Assembly: GCF_013403975.1 (NCBI RefSeq)
Contig: NZ_JABFDH010000004.1
Coordinates: forward strand, 186,001-250,000
From: Winogradskyella ursingii
Lineage (GTDB): Bacteria; Bacteroidota; Bacteroidia; Flavobacteriales; Flavobacteriaceae
Length of the DNA: 64,000 nucleotides
Direction: 5' to 3'
In this document: piece after piece, positions 54,459-64,000 of the stretch
Layout: every line of letters begins with the position of its first letter
Numbering within the stretch: position 1 is the stretch's first letter
Notes under the pieces: model-generated
What the model was told of the DNA's origin: nothing
Databases searched by the model: none
The model's input: the letters and a program-made list of their open reading frames with translations, nothing else
Position numbers and translations under genes: made by a program

Positions 54459-55670
54459 TTAGGTGATCGGTGCGCTAGCTTTATAAATAACGGCAGAATT
54501 GGGTGTTGATATGCTATATCGGCTTCCTGCAATTAAAAATGCAGATTGGCCTTTGTGCAAACTCAATGATGTAGTTCCCTCAATAATTTCTACCGTACCT
54601 TCAATAACGATTAGTATCTCAGCTGTCTTGGTTTTAGTTTGATATACATCTATTGCGGAAATAACTATTTGGCTAAGTTCAAAGTCTGGAACAGGGCTTT
54701 TATAAATACGCTCTAAATGATTCTTTTGTATTTGCCCAGACAAAATATGTGGTTTAGTTTCTTCAAATTTAATATGCTTTAATAGCTCAGGTACATCAAC
54801 ATGTTTTGGTGTTAAACCTCCACGCAATACATTGTCTGAATTGGCCATTAACTCCATGTTCTGACCTTCTAAATAAGCATGCGGAATTCCTGCATCCTGA
54901 AAAAGAGCTTCACCTTCATCCACTTTCACGATATTAAAAAAGTAAATGGAATAGATTCCTTTGTCTAAAATAGTTTTGTCTTCTGAAGTATCTACCGCTT
55001 TGGCTGACCAATAATCTGCACTCGATTTTTCTAGTTTTCCAGATAAATAAAGTGGCATTATTCGATCAACTAACGGTTGCAATATTTTATTGCTTTCCTC
55101 TTGGGATTGTTCCATCACATGTTTATAAAGACCCAAATATCCTTTTTCTTCAAAAACAGTTAAAAAATGATTGAACTCTGGCGTGCTTCTTAATACTTGT
55201 ACCAACTTTTCTTTGGGCAAAAAACCATGTAATAACCAAAACTCACTAAGTGCCACCATAATTTCTGGCTTATGGTTATCGTCTTTATAATTTCTATGTG
55301 GTGCAGTTAAAGGTATTCCCTCTTCGTTTTCGCGTTTATATCCTTTTTCAGCCTCTTTTTTTGAGGGATGTACTTGTATCGATAGCATGTCATTGACATC
55401 CAAAACCTTGAATAAAAACGGCAATCTCCCAAATTTCATCGCGATTTGATCTCCCAAAGTTTGATGGAGATTTGAATTTATATAATCATTTAAGGGTTGA
55501 TCCCCTTTTGATGTTTTTAAGATTGAAGGCGCATTCACGTGAGCACCAAGCCAATATTCCGCTTTTGGTTCTACGTTTGATTGTAGTCCTAACAACTCAG
55601 GTATAAAGTCAGTTCCTCCCCAAGCATAATTTTGTATTACTCCCTTTACTTCAAATAATCTTTGAGTCAT
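54459..55670 (-). CDS. manA: Mannose-6-phosphate isomerase, class I
   Basis: The protein has 403 aa. It interconverts mannose 6-phosphate and fructose 6-phosphate; the enzyme is zinc-dependent. The N-terminus has VIQNYAWGGTDFIPELL. Zinc ligands are in IQVHPSKKEAEKGY and NHKPEIMVAL, and a His in HVDVPELL. The active-site Arg is in LRGGLTPKH. The C-terminal cupin-like domain ends near residue 400. Cytoplasmic, feeding GDP-mannose or using mannose. Monocistronic by context. Confidence 0.95.
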   Translation of the reverse strand: MTQRLFEVKGVIQNYAWGGTDFIPELLGLQSNVEPKAEYWLGAHVNAPSILKTSKGDQPLNDYINSNLHQTLGDQIAMKFGRLPFLFKVLDVNDMLSIQVHPSKKEAEKGYKRENEEGIPLTAPHRNYKDDNHKPEIMVALSEFWLLHGFLPKEKLVQVLRSTPEFNHFLTVFEEKGYLGLYKHVMEQSQEESNKILQPLVDRIMPLYLSGKLEKSSADYWSAKAVDTSEDKTILDKGIYSIYFFNIVKVDEGEALFQDAGIPHAYLEGQNMELMANSDNVLRGGLTPKHVDVPELLKHIKFEETKPHILSGQIQKNHLERIYKSPVPDFELSQIVISAIDVYQTKTKTAEILIVIEGTVEIIEGTTSLSLHKGQSAFLIAGSRYSISTPNSAVIYKASAPIT

Positions 55671-56077: not shown

Positions 56078-56977
56078 ATGAAAAAATGTTTACTACTACT
56101 TGCATTAATAATATTAAATTCATGTGCAGTACACCAACGCTCAAACATCCAATCTAACGAAGAGTTTGTTGTGGAAATGAAACGCGCCAATACCAGAGGT
56201 GGACTCGTAGAAGCAGTGCTACAAGGTGTGTTTTTTGGTGCATCTTATTTGGCAGAAAAATCGTCAAAATCCTTAACGAGTACTTACTCACAATCCATAT
56301 CGATCAATAACTATTATAACACAGATTTAGGCGACGTAGAAAAGACCTATAACGAAATTCATATTAAAAAATTCTCAAAACCGACAGACCTGAACGAAAA
56401 AGAAAATATGAAAACTCTTATTACGGAAGAAGTGAGTAACATGCCAAAATCCCGTGGTAATAATGCAGCTTTAAGCCTTAATGATGTTATTAGGATTGAA
56501 CAAGATGATTTATTGAATTTTCATGCCGTAATTGAATTAATCAGCGATCCTCAAAATCCAGGAATTACAAGATTGAGTTTTAATCAGCTGCGTGTGTTTT
56601 TCTCAAAGACAAAAGTTTATAGTGATGAGGATCTAAATGCAAAAATTTCAATTGCTATAGAGGGACAGTGGCGTGGTGAGGACGGAACTCCAAAAAATGC
56701 CACCTTAATTGAACAGGAATACGATTTTAAGAAACTAAAATACGGGGTTAAAAATCTTATAGAAACACCAATTTTATCTCCATGGTACTACGATATTCCA
56801 ATTACAACTCAATTGGATAAAAACGATAAATATGGAGTTGTAAAGGTAAATGTAAGATTAGAAGAGTACGAAGGTAATAAGAGCAAATACATCAATAAAC
56901 TGCCAAGTATGCTCAGTGATAACAAAGATGCTATTATAAGCGATGGTGCTTCCGCAATTGAGAAAATCGCAAATTAA
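56078..56977 (+). CDS. Lipoprotein of unknown function, partner of a caspase-like gene
   Basis: The protein has 299 aa. ATG 56078 gives a lipoprotein signal (MKKCLLLLALIILNSC, Cys at 16); an ATG ten codons upstream is less likely. The next segment has a Gly-rich patch (TRGGLVEAVLQGVFFGASYLAE, about 37-58). The rest is a mixed alpha/beta domain with no recognised family. It is eight bases upstream of the caspase-propeller gene, so the two are co-transcribed and probably act together in the envelope. Confidence 0.7.
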   Translation: MKKCLLLLALIILNSCAVHQRSNIQSNEEFVVEMKRANTRGGLVEAVLQGVFFGASYLAEKSSKSLTSTYSQSISINNYYNTDLGDVEKTYNEIHIKKFSKPTDLNEKENMKTLITEEVSNMPKSRGNNAALSLNDVIRIEQDDLLNFHAVIELISDPQNPGITRLSFNQLRVFFSKTKVYSDEDLNAKISIAIEGQWRGEDGTPKNATLIEQEYDFKKLKYGVKNLIETPILSPWYYDIPITTQLDKNDKYGVVKVNVRLEEYEGNKSKYINKLPSMLSDNKDAIISDGASAIEKIAN

Positions 56978-56985
56978 TTTGCCTT

Positions 56986-59900
56986 ATGAGATATTCTGTT
57001 TTATTAGTATTTTCTTTAATATGTAGCCTAGTCTCTTCGCAGCAGAATGAAACAATAAAGTTAGAGTTCACAAAACTTAATTCTACAGACCGAAGTATTT
57101 CTGCACCCCAAACCGAAAAATACATTCAACTTTCAAAAGCTACTTTTTTACCAAAGGATCATTGGATGGTTTTTAATACTGCTATCGGAAAAAATGGTCT
57201 TGCAGGATACAACCATCAAATAAAACTATATAGTCCAGGTACGTTTCAAAATCGATTTTCAAAATTGGGCTATAAAGGATATTTGGAGGCCAATCACCGA
57301 ATAGTTGATTTTGGATCTTCCACTTTTAAATACAATAAAACTAATGGAATCCATCCGTTTTATGGTTATAAAATCGCAAAAAGCAATGAGTTTGTCTACG
57401 GATTTTATGCTTACGATTTGGTGGAGGATAAAATTAGAGCCATCAGTAACTTTGAAACTTCCCAACGTCAAATATTAGACTATAATGCAAGCGATAATCA
57501 ATTGCTTCTGAGCTTGAAAGAATTTTATAATTCAGGTTATACCGAACCTCAGGAATTTGTTTTGCTCAAAGGAAATGAAATCACCAAAATCGAAGGTAAA
57601 TACAAATTCGGAAAATTTTCAAATGATGGTGATTACCTGCTATTGATTTCGGATAAAAATGAATTGCTTTTAAAAAAATTGGATAGTTTAAAAACGATTC
57701 TAAAAGAACAATTGGTAGATGGAGAATACTACATTAACAGTTTTGGAGAGAATGAATTTTCCGTTGGAGTCGATTTTTATACCATAGATTTCGGTAAATG
57801 TAATCAGGAATCCATTATTATATTCAAAAATGAAAAAGGTGAACACCAAGCACAAAAAACAGATTGTGCCTTAATCACAGATATTGCAACAAAAGGTGAA
57901 GATAAGGTTTCAATGATTTCTAAAGGTCTAGGTCTCTTTTTGGAAAATAAAGTGATGCCTTACGAGCTGACCGAATTCCCCGAACAGATTTCTTACAATA
58001 GTGATGGCTCAAGGTTGATACTCAGCTTCAATAATGGTAAAATTGAGGTGTTTAATCCACAAACAAAAACTGTTTTGGGAGCTATGCAACATCCTACTCC
58101 AGACAGTCACGTCTATTACGATGCTCAAGGTAATTATTTTAGCAACGTTGACCCTGAAGATTATCTAAAAGCCATCAAGAATGACAAATCGATATCATTT
58201 AAAACTATTGAAAACACTTATTTCAGACCAGAAAAAATACTAAAAATTTTTGGCCATCCAAACCCTGAATATGTTGCTTTATTAGAACGAGCAATGGCAT
58301 TAAAAGCCAAAAACAAATTTGAAATTGCCAATGTAGAATCTAATGAAAGTAAACAAATACCTGAAGATAAAAAGGGAGATTTGTATTTGCTTTCGGTCGG
58401 AGTTTCGGAGTATGAACAATCTGATTATAATCTCACTTTTGCAGACAAAGACGCATTGGATATGGCTAAAATATATGGTAAGTTATCCGAAGATGATTTA
58501 GCTGAATACAAAACCAAGTTTTATGGTAATCAATTCATTTTACATAACACCAATGATGCTATCGCAGAATTAAGAAAGTACTCTGGCAAGTATAATAGTT
58601 TACATGAGTTACATCCTTTAACAACTGACGGCAACTATTGGCTTGAGGCATCGAATGACTCATTCTTAATTTGGAATTTTAAGTCAGAAAGCATCCAACC
58701 TATTGCAATGCCAAAGGATTTTAGTATGGGTGTTTATAATTTTGAACCTGTGCTTTTTGCCAATCCAGATAATGATGGATTTTATCTGAAGACTAATAAT
58801 AATGAGTTTTTTGAATATTCGTTTTCAAAAGAAAGATTCAATAAAATAGAAATCCCAAAATCTTTGGCCGATCAGGATATTTCCACAAATGATTTGGTGC
58901 TGCTAAAAAACAATAGATGGGCACATTTTGCATCCAATTTTGATGGAAGTAAAAATGAAATTCTAATAACATTTGGAGAAATTGATAAAGAGGATGTAAA
59001 ATATCAAGCATTTAATCCTAATGTATATAAGTTAAATCCACAAGATAATAGCAAAGTCATTGATTCGGCCGATATATATTCTACACAAATTAAAGCACTC
59101 TCAACAAATGGCGCACATTTGGTTTATGGGGATTTAGAAGGGCATTTGTTCTATAAGGATTTAAGAATAGAAAATGAATTACCTCAAAAACTAAATATAG
59201 AAAATCTGGAATCTTCGGATGAGGTTTCAATTTCTGATGATGGTCAAACCCTTTCAGTTATAAGAAGAAACTCAAAAGTCTCTGGATTCAAAATTGAGAA
59301 TTATGATAGAAAGGGCGATTTGCTCGATACTAGTATAATAAAGGAAAATGTAGTTGGTTTTTCCAATTTTGATAATAATCCGAAGTGGATTTCTATGACG
59401 GATGCTTTGGTGAAAGAAGAATTTATAAATCCCGATGATTTACTGGAAAAGGCGCAGCCAGTTTCATTTACTAGTGTAACTGTGAGGCATTTAGTTAATG
59501 AGGGGGCAACTTCAAAATCTATAGTAAAAGAAATTAAAGAGGTTTTTAAAAATGCAAAACCTGAAGATCAAATAGTTCTATTTTTGGCTGGGCACGGTGT
59601 CTTGGATCGAGAATTAAATTACTACTATGCAGCTCACGATATGGATTTTAACGATGTAAATTCTAATGGTTTGGGTTTTAGAGCTATAATCGAAAGCCTT
59701 AATAGTTCCAAGGCCAACAATAAATTATTGCTTATGGATACTTGCCATTCGGGTAATACTCTAGATATGGAATCTGGTCAGGAAATTTCGGCAACTGGAA
59801 ATAATGGAATAGGGCAAAGAGGTTCTAAATCCAGAAGTACTGAAGATCCAAAACCTGAATTTAAATTATCGGATATTGTGTCGGATGTTTTTGAAGATTT

Positions 59901-60189
59901 CTTGTCTAAAAGCGGTATTACCGTAATTTCCGCATCATCGGGAGAAGATGTGGCCTATGAGAATAAGGCCTTAGGCAATGGAGCGTTTACAAGTGCATAC
60001 ATTGGTTTGTTAAAAACTAAACTTAAAGCTGGCGGTTTTGTGATTACTAAGGAAGAATTAAACAATCCAATAACACTGACCGATACCGATATTACTGAGC
60101 TTTTAAAACGGGTCAATATTTTAACTAACGGCAAACAAACACCAGATTTGCGTGAATTAAATAGTGAGAGTACGCTAAAAATGTGGTAG
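56986..60189 (+). CDS. Secreted caspase-like (C14) protein with a propeller-like insert in the catalytic domain
   Basis: The protein has 1067 aa. Signal peptide (1-18). Residues about 20-430 have repeated beta strands of WD40/propeller type. A caspase-like domain begins at 465 (DLYLLSVGVSEYEQ; FADKDALDMAKIYG to 498), then is broken by about 325 residues with propeller-like repeats (LTTDGNYWLEASND; YDRKGDLLDTS). It resumes at about 826 (FTSVTVRHLVNEGATSKSIV) with catalytic His870 in LFLAGHGV and Cys920 in MDTCHSG. Exported. It converges on the next gene with no bases between the stops. Confidence 0.85.
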   Translation: MRYSVLLVFSLICSLVSSQQNETIKLEFTKLNSTDRSISAPQTEKYIQLSKATFLPKDHWMVFNTAIGKNGLAGYNHQIKLYSPGTFQNRFSKLGYKGYLEANHRIVDFGSSTFKYNKTNGIHPFYGYKIAKSNEFVYGFYAYDLVEDKIRAISNFETSQRQILDYNASDNQLLLSLKEFYNSGYTEPQEFVLLKGNEITKIEGKYKFGKFSNDGDYLLLISDKNELLLKKLDSLKTILKEQLVDGEYYINSFGENEFSVGVDFYTIDFGKCNQESIIIFKNEKGEHQAQKTDCALITDIATKGEDKVSMISKGLGLFLENKVMPYELTEFPEQISYNSDGSRLILSFNNGKIEVFNPQTKTVLGAMQHPTPDSHVYYDAQGNYFSNVDPEDYLKAIKNDKSISFKTIENTYFRPEKILKIFGHPNPEYVALLERAMALKAKNKFEIANVESNESKQIPEDKKGDLYLLSVGVSEYEQSDYNLTFADKDALDMAKIYGKLSEDDLAEYKTKFYGNQFILHNTNDAIAELRKYSGKYNSLHELHPLTTDGNYWLEASNDSFLIWNFKSESIQPIAMPKDFSMGVYNFEPVLFANPDNDGFYLKTNNNEFFEYSFSKERFNKIEIPKSLADQDISTNDLVLLKNNRWAHFASNFDGSKNEILITFGEIDKEDVKYQAFNPNVYKLNPQDNSKVIDSADIYSTQIKALSTNGAHLVYGDLEGHLFYKDLRIENELPQKLNIENLESSDEVSISDDGQTLSVIRRNSKVSGFKIENYDRKGDLLDTSIIKENVVGFSNFDNNPKWISMTDALVKEEFINPDDLLEKAQPVSFTSVTVRHLVNEGATSKSIVKEIKEVFKNAKPEDQIVLFLAGHGVLDRELNYYYAAHDMDFNDVNSNGLGFRAIIESLNSSKANNKLLLMDTCHSGNTLDMESGQEISATGNNGIGQRGSKSRSTEDPKPEFKLSDIVSDVFEDFLSKSGITVISASSGEDVAYENKALGNGAFTSAYIGLLKTKLKAGGFVITKEELNNPITLTDTDITELLKRVNILTNGKQTPDLRELNSESTLKMW

Positions 60190-63180
60190 TTATTGGGATA
60201 GTATATATTTGTCAATTGTATTTTGGGTGTAAAAATCCTTAAGTTTGTTTGAGCGTAGTAAATTTTGGTCAACTCGCCTTCGGTAATTTTCACTGCTATT
60301 TAAATCGCCAATAAATTGTGCATAAACAGCAGCTAAAAGCATATCAGGATTGTTATCTAATTTCGTAAGATTTTGATAATAATAATTGGCATTATCTCCA
60401 GCGTCTGCATCAATGGCGGCTTTCACCATAGTTTCTAAAAGAGCAATATTCAATTTATTGGAATTGTCTTTGTGCAGTGCTGGTAATGCAACCTCCAATG
60501 CTCTTATAGGTTCGCCTTGTAAGTACAGAAAATTAGAATAGACTACAGCAGTTTCCGCTGAGTTGTCAATCGTAAATGCTATGCCGTAGAGTTTTTTTGC
60601 TTCTGCAGGAGTACCAAATTTTAATTTGTTTTTTGCCATGGTTAAGACAAATTCAGAAATTTCTTTTTGGCGCTTACCAAAGACGTCAGAATTTGATGAA
60701 CGTACTAAATTATGTTGTGCATCTTCAATTTGATTAGTTTCCAGTTGGCTGTAACCAAGGTTTTGAGAACTCTTTACGTAGGTAGGATCAATTTCAGCTA
60801 CTTTTTTATAGGCCTTTATAGCTTCAGAATAATTGCTTTTAGAAAAATAGGTTTGTCCTAAAAGATGATAAAAATCTGGAACATCATTAGTCTTTGCAAT
60901 AGCCTTGTTTAAAAGGGCTATTGTTTTTTCCTGCTGGTTTTCGGAGTTGTAAAGATTGACCAAAGCTTCGTAAGCCGGAATGAAATAATCGTTTTTTTCT
61001 ATAGCTTTAAGATAAAATGCTTGCGATTTTTCAGCATCATTAAGTTGTTCCTTGTTATAGTTGGCGTAATGAAAGTAAGGTTCTGGACTATCTTCATTAG
61101 CGTCTATGGCTGCTTCAAAAGACTTCTTAGCACCCAAAGGCTTACGCATTGAAGATAGTAGCCAACCACGACCAGCATAAGCTTTAGCATTAAAAGGATC
61201 TATGCTTATTGCTTTTCTGTAAAGTGAATCCGCAAGACGTAATCGAGATAGTTTAGATTTTTTCAACCTTAAAAAATCAGCATATTCAAAATATACTATG
61301 GCATTTTCAGGTTCATAATCTATGGCGTTGAGTAATAATAACTCTGCTTTGTCTTCTGGTATTTGGTTGTCGGTGATATAATTTAATAGACCATACCCAA
61401 TAAAAGTATTTATGGAGTCTGTCTTTACCGCTTTGTTGTAATATTCTAAAGATGCTTTTGTATTACCTTTTAATTTTTGGATGTTGCTCAGTCTTTGTAA
61501 CGTTTGTGTGTTATCCTTATCCAATGCTAAGGCCTTTTGGTAGTAAGTTTCTGCAATGGCATATTTGCCTTGTTTTTCGTTGATTTCTCCTAGTTTTAAA
61601 TTGGAGTTTAAACCCTTTTCACCTAAAGCTATATTGAGGGTGTTTTTAGCATCTTCAAACTGATATTGATCCATAAAATTGTCGCTGATACTAGTAACAG
61701 GTTTCTCCCATGTACCAATTAAATTTTTCGCTTTGTTGTAATGGTAATATGCACTGTCGTAAACTTTTAGTTGATTGTAAACTTCACCTAGCGCATTGTG
61801 GATATAAGCTGCTCTAGGTTCTAGCTTTATGGCTTGCTGAAGCTGACGTTTTGCCCTTGGAAATTTTGAATAATTCTTGGTGCGAATAATAGCATAAGCT
61901 TCTAATAGCAATTGTGAAGCTTTAATCCGTTCTGTTAAAAAACCATCTTCACCCATCAGTTCCAAACAAATTTCAAGATGTTTGGATTGTTTTGTAAACT
62001 CCTTGCTAGAGGGTAAATTTTTGGTTCCATCTATATATAAGTTGATTAACTCTTGCGCTTCACTAGATAATAACTTTAGTAACGTACTTTTCATTTTGTC
62101 GGTAACCGTCTCTGGAACTGAGGCATCATTTACCGAGGATTTATAAATTTCATAAGAGCTAGAGCTTTTTCCATAGTAAGATTTTCGTTCAATGGCATCT
62201 TTAAATTTTTTAATGGTTGTACCAGCGGTTTTATCTTTTAAATCTGTTTCTGTAATGCCTCTGGCAGCCAGTTTCTTGGTGTTTTCTATAGCCTCGCTCA
62301 AGGTTTCAAAAGCGATGATGTTATCACTTGGTTGAACAGTTTTAAAAACGGCCCTATCATTTTTGGTTCTTACAACAGGTGTTTGGGTTTTATTGTGTTT
62401 TTGAGCCACTGTTGTATTGACGTTGTCATAGAGATAATCATCAATTTCCCTAAAAATAATGGTGTTGTCTGTATTGGCATCTGCATTTCCAGCCAATCCT
62501 TTGACCAGATAATAGGTGAAATATCCATGTTTTAAATCGCCACTTTCGTAAGACAGTTCATTAGAACCACAACTTAAGAATTTTGAAGAATTCTCAAACA
62601 TCGCCTGTATCGTTCCCATATTTTTTTGGGTTCCGTCTTCAAAAACAAAACCAGATCTACAAGCATCTAGAATAAGATAAACCTTAACGCCTTTTGTAGA
62701 AAGATTGTTAATCACGGTATTGAGTAAATTGAGCGTAAGCACACCACCAGAATAATACTCTTGGTGCGCGTTGGCATCTGATGCTAAAAGAAAACCTTCC
62801 TTTTGCCCAAAGTCGTCAACCACATCACCATGACCTGCAAAATAGAGGTAAAGCACATCATTTTTTTGTGAACTATTGAAAAGCTGCTTGAGCTCTTGTA
62901 CAATATTTAGTGCAACGGCATCTTCATTAATAAGGAGTGTGATGTTGTCATCTTTTATGCCTTCTACATCACTTAAATAATTTTTAAAAAGAGCGGCATC
63001 GTTGTCTGCATACTTAAGTTTTAGGGCATCTTCCTTGTAATCTGAAACACCAATAACCAAAGCTCGTTTAGTGCCTACAACATCAATTTCTGTTGAGGTC
63101 GCTTTAGAACCGCGAGAATCTTCTTGGGAAAAAACTGCGGTTGCGAGAAATAAAAATGTATAAAGTAGGGCTTGTTTCAT
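60190..63180 (-). CDS. Secreted caspase-like (C14) protein with TPR repeats
   Basis: The protein has 996 aa. Signal peptide (1-18, ending AVFS). Caspase domain about 36-275: RALVIGVSDYKEDALKLKYA, His117 in FAGHGD and Cys174 in DACRSG. It also has LRS-type surroundings and the terminal GYFTYYLVKGL of C14 domains. From about residue 400 to the end there are many TPR-like helix pairs (AAYIHNALGEVYNQLKVYDS; FYHLLGQTYFSKSNYSEAIKA). It lies 16 bases downstream of the CHAT gene, in one operon. A protein-processing scaffold in the envelope is inferred. Confidence 0.9.
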   Translation of the reverse strand: MKQALLYTFLFLATAVFSQEDSRGSKATSTEIDVVGTKRALVIGVSDYKEDALKLKYADNDAALFKNYLSDVEGIKDDNITLLINEDAVALNIVQELKQLFNSSQKNDVLYLYFAGHGDVVDDFGQKEGFLLASDANAHQEYYSGGVLTLNLLNTVINNLSTKGVKVYLILDACRSGFVFEDGTQKNMGTIQAMFENSSKFLSCGSNELSYESGDLKHGYFTYYLVKGLAGNADANTDNTIIFREIDDYLYDNVNTTVAQKHNKTQTPVVRTKNDRAVFKTVQPSDNIIAFETLSEAIENTKKLAARGITETDLKDKTAGTTIKKFKDAIERKSYYGKSSSSYEIYKSSVNDASVPETVTDKMKSTLLKLLSSEAQELINLYIDGTKNLPSSKEFTKQSKHLEICLELMGEDGFLTERIKASQLLLEAYAIIRTKNYSKFPRAKRQLQQAIKLEPRAAYIHNALGEVYNQLKVYDSAYYHYNKAKNLIGTWEKPVTSISDNFMDQYQFEDAKNTLNIALGEKGLNSNLKLGEINEKQGKYAIAETYYQKALALDKDNTQTLQRLSNIQKLKGNTKASLEYYNKAVKTDSINTFIGYGLLNYITDNQIPEDKAELLLLNAIDYEPENAIVYFEYADFLRLKKSKLSRLRLADSLYRKAISIDPFNAKAYAGRGWLLSSMRKPLGAKKSFEAAIDANEDSPEPYFHYANYNKEQLNDAEKSQAFYLKAIEKNDYFIPAYEALVNLYNSENQQEKTIALLNKAIAKTNDVPDFYHLLGQTYFSKSNYSEAIKAYKKVAEIDPTYVKSSQNLGYSQLETNQIEDAQHNLVRSSNSDVFGKRQKEISEFVLTMAKNKLKFGTPAEAKKLYGIAFTIDNSAETAVVYSNFLYLQGEPIRALEVALPALHKDNSNKLNIALLETMVKAAIDADAGDNANYYYQNLTKLDNNPDMLLAAVYAQFIGDLNSSENYRRRVDQNLLRSNKLKDFYTQNTIDKYILSQ

Positions 63181-63196
63181 TAGTTAAATATAGATA

Positions 63197-64000
63197 TTAT
63201 TCAAATAGTACAAAAGCAGCCCATTTCTCTGGGTTGTTTTTGTATTTGGTTGACATTTCTAGTTGTGTATTTCTAAACGCAGTTCTTATGTCTTGTCCGC
63301 TAAGCCAATTGCTGTAAAACTGTTGCATAAACTCTGAGGTTTCTTCATCTGGTACTTCCCAGAGGCTCATGATTATGATATCCACACCAGCCATTTTAAA
63401 CGCACGTTGTAGGCCATAAACCCCTTCGCTACCATCTATATCGCCAAGACCAGTCTCACAGGCACTTAAAACCACTACATCCGTTTTGGATAAATTTAGA
63501 TTAGAAATTTCTAAAGCGGTTAAAATACCATCATCATCGGTATATGGGTTGTTTCCATTTTTCCATGCATAATTTGCCCCAGCAAACAATAATCCTGAAC
63601 GTAGTAATGGGTCTTCGGATACTTTATAAAGATTGTTTTGTGAAGAAATTATAACATCGTCTAAATCATTTTTTGGATTCTCAAAAAAGAAACCATGAGT
63701 CGCAATATGAATAATATTCGGGCTATTGCCACTTAGTGCTTTAAAAGCTGTTTCGGTGGCATCTTTACCAATTAGATTTGAATAGATTTTTCCACTTTTT
63801 GAGAACAGGTTCTCTACGGATTTTACTTCTTCAAGTGTACCTTGTAAGTACGACCAATTAGAACCTAAACTCCGTGTGCCTGACGTATTTCTAAACGCAG
63901 GTATATTAGACGTACTTTTTGTGTTATCTATTTTTTGATTGGTCGGTACAAAATCGTAATCTACGCCACCGATAAATATCGTGTTTTCTGGTGTTGGTTC
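63197..64000 (-). CDS. CHAT-domain peptidase, 3' part (5' end beyond the window)
   Basis: The frame is open from the window edge to the TAA at 63197, giving 267 residues of a C-terminal CHAT (caspase HetF-associated) domain. It shows HIATHGFFF with the catalytic His, LLFAGAN, LEISNLNLSKTDVVVLSACE with the catalytic Cys (SACETGLGD), EGVYGLQRAF and the terminal WAAFVLFE. CHAT proteins usually have N-terminal TPRs, which would lie past the window. It is 16 bases upstream of the TPR-caspase gene. Signal peptide not visible. Confidence 0.9.
   Translation of the reverse strand, partial: EPTPENTIFIGGVDYDFVPTNQKIDNTKSTSNIPAFRNTSGTRSLGSNWSYLQGTLEEVKSVENLFSKSGKIYSNLIGKDATETAFKALSGNSPNIIHIATHGFFFENPKNDLDDVIISSQNNLYKVSEDPLLRSGLLFAGANYAWKNGNNPYTDDDGILTALEISNLNLSKTDVVVLSACETGLGDIDGSEGVYGLQRAFKMAGVDIIIMSLWEVPDEETSEFMQQFYSNWLSGQDIRTAFRNTQLEMSTKYKNNPEKWAAFVLFE

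Follow-up and report, generated by a model that had tools for sequence, protein, structure and literature searches.

Background

Operons that encode more than one metacaspase, with at most three metacaspases per operon, were reported in a 2012 survey (four groups, including Bacteroidetes), together with some extracellular metacaspases and with OmpA domains in 14 metacaspase operons (PMC3501461). Kaur et al. (2020) described trypsin-NucA conflict systems (System 3), for which they propose a proteolytic cascade (PMC7159879, section 32). In two nuclease systems, canu (caspase-nuclease) and HamM (gated nuclease), pro-enzymes are set free by a protease that cuts at conserved residues in inserted segments (PMC12799240), and in gingipain R, a clan CD peptidase of family C25 with Arg at P1, the prodomain is cut off after Arg (PMC4357240). 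In this article we analyze a locus of Winogradskyella ursingii (assembly GCF_013403975.1) that begins in a stretch of 64,000 nucleotides (contig NZ_JABFDH010000004.1, positions 186,001 to 250,000), referred to as the window, and continues beyond its end. The nine genes of the locus, referred to as the module, encode proteases and partner proteins that carry similar Arg-Gly (RG) or Lys-Gly (KG) sites. With a probability of roughly 60%, we interpret the module as an extracytoplasmic proteolytic cascade in which zymogens would be cut after Arg or Lys before Gly, probably by the caspase caspD, and in which the set of caspases and CHAT proteins would be interchangeable.

Results

Gene content of the locus

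According to the open reading frame (ORF) calls, two genes of the locus lie on the plus strand and seven on the minus strand. They are listed here with the names used throughout; positions beyond 64,000 are window-equivalent, i.e., counted on along the same contig.

56078..56977, plus strand: lipoprotein, 299 aa; lipobox LNSC, Cys16
56986..60189, plus strand: propeller-caspase, 1067 aa; C14 domain at residues 839-1054 (Pfam E 1e-7); motifs AGHG and DTCHSG
60190..63180, minus strand: casp-TPR, 996 aa; C14 domain at residues 38-273 (E 1.4e-20), then TPR; motifs AGHG and DACRSG
63197..67069 (contig 249197-253069), minus strand: TPR-CHAT, 1290 aa; CHAT domain PF12770 (E 1.7e-58)
67073-69139, minus strand: caspC, 688 aa; C14 domain (E 9.2e-17)
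69143-71122, minus strand: caspD, 659 aa; C14 domain PF00656 (E 1.7e-17)
71137-72573, minus strand: barrel protein, 478 aa; no convincing family
72599-74062, minus strand: DUF900 a/b-hydrolase, 487 aa; DUF900 (E 1.7e-49)
74105-75631, minus strand: trypsin-ankyrin protease, 508 aa; Trypsin_2 PF13365 (E 2.1e-15) and ankyrin

A first-pass annotation, made from the window, had recognized the lipoprotein, the propeller-caspase, the TPR-caspase and the CHAT protein, and these are confirmed by the lipobox and the Pfam matches, as are their His/Cys pairs (AGHG/DTCHSG, AGHG/DACRSG and ATHG/SACETG, the last in the C-terminal portion of TPR-CHAT at 63197..64000). The locus is larger than the two small operons of that annotation: the minus strand carries seven genes with gaps of 3-42 bp, a run that continues 11.6 kb beyond the window end to position 75631, and the propeller-caspase and casp-TPR genes abut at 60189/60190. 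Instead of three clan CD proteins there are five (four C14 caspases and one CHAT), in addition to a trypsin-like protease, a hydrolase and the barrel protein. The proposed export agrees with the N-termini of all nine proteins, which, judged by eye, resemble signal peptides of the Sec or lipoprotein type.

A basic-Gly motif shared by the module proteins

SRG is the top-ranking tripeptide of the locus, followed by TRG. The pattern [ST]RG occurs 13 times, compared to 1.24 occurrences expected by shuffling, and is found in eight of the nine proteins versus 5 of 54 control ORFs; the ninth protein, the propeller-caspase, has QRGSK. An origin from a DNA repeat was considered and rejected, as the 13 sites have 13 different codon triples. 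Pooled over the loci described below, [ST]RG was counted 167 times versus about 16 expected, a comparison among orthologs that are not independent; pooled controls gave 13 versus 9.7 (64 proteins) and 2 versus 3.4 (34 proteins).

A scan of seven family alignments (4514 positions) detected 455 near-invariant dipeptides, 11 of which are RG. Among the isolated ones, i.e., near-invariant dipeptides with variable flanks (less than 55% identity), RG accounts for five of nine; the share is two of three at flank identity below 50%, and under strict invariance all five isolated dipeptides are RG. The hypergeometric probability for 5/9 versus 11/455 is 3.5e-7, which serves as a guide only because it assumes independent positions and treats the selection of RG and of the identity line as given.

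Considered site by site, the motif (R-G preceded by S, T, D, P, Q or another residue; K-G in some propeller-caspases) is conserved and located at a boundary in almost every component. Three of these candidate sites have coordinates in the window:

56195..56200, plus strand: codons of lipoprotein R40-G41; candidate site of release, close to the lipid anchor
59818..59823, plus strand: codons of propeller-caspase R945-G946 (QRGSK); candidate processing site in the p20-p10 linker
63109..63114, minus strand: codons of casp-TPR R23-G24 (SRGSK); candidate propeptide site directly after the signal peptide

The lipoprotein has TRG at residues 39-41, 24 residues past Cys16, and a second site, SRG, at 125-127; R40, G41 and R126 are found in all 15 sequences. 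The RG of casp-TPR is kept in 8/8 sequences, and the nine readable propeller-caspase linkers have RG in four cases and KG in five, which fits a basic P1 residue. The barrel protein has RG exactly in 23/23 sequences at each of two linker sites. RG stands ahead of the hydrolase domain in the DUF900 protein (12/12), ahead of the trypsin domain in trypsin-ankyrin (15/15) and, as LRG or similar, just ahead of the caspase domain in caspC (4/4). The p20-p10 linker of caspD contains two RG sites, conserved in 21/22 and 20/22 rows; the odd row in the former is a CHAT protein.

In TPR-CHAT the site is a TRGSKAKST loop (R948) just past the window end. RG occurs at this loop in all 17 readable module rows, comprising 13 long CHATs and four short ones whose loop alignment is doubtful, versus none of 23 non-module rows; one further module row (of 18) ended before the loop and was not counted. 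The controls were drawn from the 30 best of 65 CHAT-bearing genomes. Among the 25 control loci submitted, L132 (237 aa) gave no row, and L131, which has the RG, was moved to the module side because its contig (G048:C268) starts with a caspD fragment. A CHAT on a separate contig of a module-bearing Bizionia genome (L124), which reads NTRGSEGS at the loop position, was excluded beforehand; if counted as a control, it would bring the figure to 1/24. Such a loop would be expected of a dispersed module member. Another CHAT protein outside the 17 rows (L028:14869-16835) has RG just ahead of its CHAT domain. An RGSK-like extension of the motif is common to CHAT, casp-TPR and propeller-caspase.

Catalytic residues and the candidate cutter

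CaspD has a C14 domain, and all 20 caspD sequences keep its His and Cys as well as an acidic S1 residue, Asp at Cys-2, which we take to be the position of Asp211 in TbMCA2. Asp211 has been assigned to a potential S1 pocket (PMC4357240), and C14B enzymes cleave after basic residues (PMC6426788). The solved relatives of caspD are yeast metacaspase-1 (4f6o), GSU0716 (3bij) and metacaspase-4 (6w8s). We infer that caspD is a C14B-like enzyme resembling metacaspases with basic P1 preference.

The His-Asp-Ser triad of trypsin-ankyrin is complete in 15/15 sequences, with Asp at the trypsin-189 place (position counted by eye) in the same number. Its RG precedes V[FY]GxD, presumably similar to the first residues of mature glutamyl endopeptidases. 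The CHAT His and Cys are present in all rows without a gap at these columns (15 of 17). The strict Cys pattern was missed by one tail caspase in L028 and one in L033, the latter reading DVCFGA.

Distribution and gene neighborhoods

Counts from the genome searches are lower bounds, as a PF00656 search of the own genome recovered two of its four caspases. Among 299 genomes of the host family, strong matches were found for the barrel protein in seven, trypsin-ankyrin in six, caspD in six and the lipoprotein in five, and the sets are nested, i.e., strong matches of the latter three are confined to barrel-bearing genomes. In one of these genomes (G015, an assembly 84% complete) the barrel gene sits at a contig end. 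The next-best matches are far weaker (barrel E 4e-8, trypsin-ankyrin 3e-18, caspD 1e-12, lipoprotein 1e-4). Weak barrel matches in two of nine genomes (G297 and G044), without module neighbors, were excluded from the co-occurrence, as were weak matches of trypsin-ankyrin (40 of 46 genomes at E 1e-5), caspD (28 of 34 genomes at E 1e-5) and the lipoprotein (1 of 6).

A GTDB scan yielded 21 outside loci in Winogradskyella, Flavivirga, Bizionia, Flaviramulus, Flagellimonas, Paenimyroides, Parapedobacter and metagenome-assembled genomes (MAGs); six of them apparently come from genomes also present in the 299-genome set. The barrel and caspD genes are adjacent in all 20 testable loci (by ORF in 19 of 21; the contig of L035 stops inside caspD and that of L045 inside the barrel gene). 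The genes downstream of caspD vary in number and type between loci, and the membership of CHAT, casp-TPR and propeller-caspase changes from species to species. Thirteen post-caspD genes were scanned with Pfam and 10 carry a caspase or CHAT domain; of the other three, one in L043 is WD40 only and two, past the CHAT in L039 and L046, lack a peptidase domain. Post-caspD genes other than these 13 were named through similarity to proteins of the own locus. The lipoprotein was detected in 14 of the 20 module genomes searched. Trypsin-ankyrin likewise was found in 14/20, at E 1e-120 or better, and its full-length form is lacking in the other six, of which five have no match at E 1e-10 (four named isolates and one apparently a MAG 84% complete) and one has a 97-aa remnant. 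No trypsin-ankyrin was found at E 1e-10 in the Flavivirga, Parapedobacter, Paenimyroides and Flagellimonas module genomes. The remnant, in Winogradskyella KYW1333 (L032:8168-8461), consists of residues 1-65 followed by 484-508, with the protease domain and most ankyrins gone; the remaining module genes of this strain keep long open frames.

The first-pass annotation had postulated a single conserved pathway, and both the co-occurrence in 299 genomes and the retention of catalytic residues in the families examined agree with this; neither a failure of the genes to co-occur in relatives nor a loss of catalytic residues, either of which would have pointed to chance, was observed. Co-occurrence holds for the module, but the two members that stay constant, barrel and caspD, lie outside the window. 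The four families originally named do not form a constant set, given the varying CHAT, casp-TPR and propeller-caspase and the incomplete occurrence of the lipoprotein.

The barrel protein is present in 11 of 68 genomes of the host genus. By coordinates, six of the 11 carriers have it near the same right-flank gene, and in five it is elsewhere, on another contig or unresolved. In a one-contig relative without the barrel gene (G352), the genes of the left and right flanks are near each other, separated by only two small genes. A phosphomannose-isomerase-like gene (window 54459-55670) adjoins the module and has no match at E <= 1e-30 in the other 67 genus genomes; it may have arrived together with the module.

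Carriage by plasmids or phages was rejected, as the barrel protein has no match in PLSDB plasmids and no confirmed match in IMG/VR. Against phage records caspD gave one weak partial match, which covers 23% of the query at 28% identity.

Some neighboring or similar genes were not assigned to the module. Large proteins encoded after CHAT in two loci (L039:16455-19676 and L046:16759-20445) have no peptidase domain by Pfam; they were not counted as members and are probably surface proteins outside the module. In Parapedobacter a CHASE2 protein (L041:17055-18979, Pfam E 1.6e-22) is encoded beside the propeller-caspase; genes of similar appearance, unscanned, occur together with an exported partner of about 259 aa between the lipoprotein and the propeller-caspase in G302 (L167) and G354 (L154 and L155). 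The CHASE2-type protein with its partner is a possible input sensor. Caspase clusters in other genomes of the family (L097-L101) lack visible signal peptides and lie beside TIR-like (by eye) and other genes; they were rejected as instances of the same module, having no barrel protein and only weak caspD matches. Distant trypsin homologs of 407-470 aa in four genomes (L102-L105) are each preceded by a large gene, whose complete copies encode 780-980 aa and whose product in three of the four cases has an APVAG segment near the N-terminus; these were also rejected, as their genomic context is different.

Family searches and structural models

Neither the lipoprotein nor the barrel protein has a convincing family in Pfam, NCBIfam, PADLOC or PHROGs. 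PADLOC, run on eight of the nine proteins, gave hits to caspase and TPR models, plus a weak one to Csx19 (E 0.018) taken as noise, and no Cas gene, such as would accompany a type III CRISPR CHAT (Csx29-like). All four caspases hit the NCBIfam caspase model NF047832 (EACC1-associated type; E 8e-20 to 2.5e-6) with 27-71 bits, far under its 140-bit cut-off, and casp-TPR has an additional weak CHAT match in Pfam. Among the nine own proteins, Pfam found no nuclease family, such as would mark a canu system, and no NucA endonuclease, such as would mark System 3. No gasdermin match was obtained in Pfam or PADLOC, in searches where the barrel protein and the lipoprotein match no family at all.

The AlphaFold model of the barrel protein (mean pLDDT, i.e., predicted local distance difference test score, 75) consists of an N-terminal beta domain (29-88), a segment with pLDDT below 50 (90-139), helices to residue 281, and predicted strands (286-476) that resemble an outer-membrane barrel, after which the protein is named. 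The Foldseek VIA rows mostly cover the helical bundle. The lipoprotein model is unusable (mean pLDDT 44).

Discussion

A proposed exported protease cascade

The first-pass annotation had raised the possibility that one member of the cluster activates another. This has become the best reading of the locus, because almost all components have basic-Gly sites at their boundaries. Under the proposed cascade, the varied CHAT, TPR-caspase and propeller-caspase members would sense or select inputs and feed caspD, which would then be the main enzyme cleaving after the basic residue of the sites. CaspD is the best candidate cutter because it is present in every testable locus, is related to metacaspases, resembles C14B enzymes, which cleave at basic P1, and has two RG sites in its own linker. 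Cleavage would activate the trypsin-like protease (itself a likely substrate of the cascade), free and activate the hydrolase domain of the DUF900 protein, cut the barrel protein within both linkers so that its domains are freed, and release the lipoprotein from its lipid anchor, with an altered envelope as the outcome. The likeliest use would be defense or competition, where a breach of the envelope may lead to lysis or altruistic death; this is the least certain step. We favor a role in conflict rather than housekeeping on account of the sporadic presence of the module and its changing caspase set.

Several observations weigh against the cascade. The cleavage events and the effectors are putative. 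The second site of the lipoprotein lacks Gly in 2/15 sequences (G127 is kept in 13/15), the [ST]RG of caspC (R192) is kept in 2/4 and its linker has no RG, and the KG of five out of nine propeller-caspases may be a chance occurrence in a long linker. The RG sites of trypsin-ankyrin and of the caspD linker lie amid conserved residues (flank identity 0.74-0.81), and because these flanks are well conserved the conservation of the sites themselves is of little informative value. Just three of the non-module CHATs are close relatives (L117, L122 and L123), the others aligning poorly in the loop. As for the dipeptide scan, the propeller-caspase and caspC were left out, both RG and the 55% line were picked after the data had been seen, and the lead of RG fades with looser flanks (6/18 below 60% and 6/35 below 65%); the four control families of flanking genes, which gave one isolated dipeptide and no RG in 1920 positions, are mostly more conserved. 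The Foldseek search with the barrel model was weak, with a FadL mutant as the best match (E 1.9e-3), and we therefore claim no barrel fold past the AlphaFold outline. Finally, the N-terminus of the trypsin domain could not be aligned to solved glutamyl endopeptidases, the PDB alignments beginning downstream of the site.

Alternative explanations

The enzyme that cuts the RG sites could instead be trypsin-ankyrin, or else a general Arg-specific protease that the host exports, with the caspases merely recognizing or scaffolding. The intact triad of trypsin-ankyrin and its Asp at the trypsin-189 place would suit such a role; however, a general protease leaves unexplained why the motif marks members of the module, and the barrel and caspD RG sites persist in the four named isolates without a trypsin-ankyrin match. 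Since trypsin-ankyrin is absent or a remnant in several genomes while these sites are kept, it is not the only cutter, and this makes caspD the likelier one. We consider the alternative unlikely. A different explanation for the motif, which we regard as more improbable still, is that RG is a docking or modification site (scaffold binding or Arg modification) and that the module forms an envelope complex. A common binding partner would also select a motif shared by unlike proteins, and the recurring RGSK-like extensions are in line with this, but the positions resemble those of processing sites, i.e., before the catalytic domains of trypsin, DUF900 and caspC and in p20-p10 linkers, and R is replaced by K in some propeller-caspases.

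The remaining alternatives concern the function rather than the motif. The exported location, and the varying genomic position of the module, would be compatible with ordinary housekeeping or nutritional proteolysis or with surface processing and no conflict system. Its occurrence in a minority of the genus, the near-empty slot in the one-contig relative and the changing caspase set are more in keeping with an accessory system, and we give the housekeeping role a low probability, similar to that of the general protease. TPR-CHAT-like proteins are common in the family (65/149 genomes at E 1e-8), and on that ground one might suspect a chance neighborhood of unrelated exported proteases; this is ruled out, for practical purposes, by the nested co-occurrence in 299 genomes, along with adjacency over several genera including Parapedobacter.

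A bolder form of the cascade, which we put forward tentatively and hold to be somewhat more doubtful than the cascade itself, is that the module is a bacterial counterpart of complement or clotting: one basic-Gly cleavage code would connect the master metacaspase with a trypsin-like zymogen, a hydrolase, a barrel of the outer-membrane type and a lipoprotein, and strains would exchange caspases and CHAT proteins much as they would the members of an immune or competition repertoire. A multi-caspase cascade outside the cytoplasm, if real, would show that bacteria have protease cascades like those of complement or clotting. Candidate cleavage positions can be read from the sequence in all nine proteins, and the barrel protein and the lipoprotein, neither with a family match, and the DUF900 hydrolase would be the candidate effectors.

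Comparison with known systems

Gingipain R is likewise a clan CD protease, and it is exported. It differs from the module in belonging to family C25 and is not known to form a multi-member array with marked partners. The canu and HamM systems are similar in that pro-enzymes are freed by cuts at conserved sites, as is proposed here, and different in that their effector is a nuclease and that the mapped HamM cuts are after Ile, not Arg (PMC12799240). System 3 also combines several proteases per operon; unlike the module, and going by the section cited, it has a NucA core and EAD1 adaptors and occurs mostly in alphaproteobacteria, and none of these families was found by Pfam in the nine proteins. 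Metacaspases and orthocaspases (C14B) resemble caspD, which matches 4f6o, 3bij and 6w8s and has the His/Cys pair and the Asp at Cys-2. Unlike in metacaspase operons, the partners here are a barrel protein, a CHAT, trypsin-ankyrin, a hydrolase and a lipoprotein, all sharing the RG site, and the portions of the 2012 survey considered here describe neither a cascade nor a common cut site (PMC3501461).

A literature search based on titles and abstract openings, with bioRxiv and most subscription journals outside its coverage, found no article on this module. The parts are of known kinds, and the arrangement and the shared RG site are not described in the literature examined. Extracellular metacaspases and operons with OmpA are already on record in the survey (PMC3501461).

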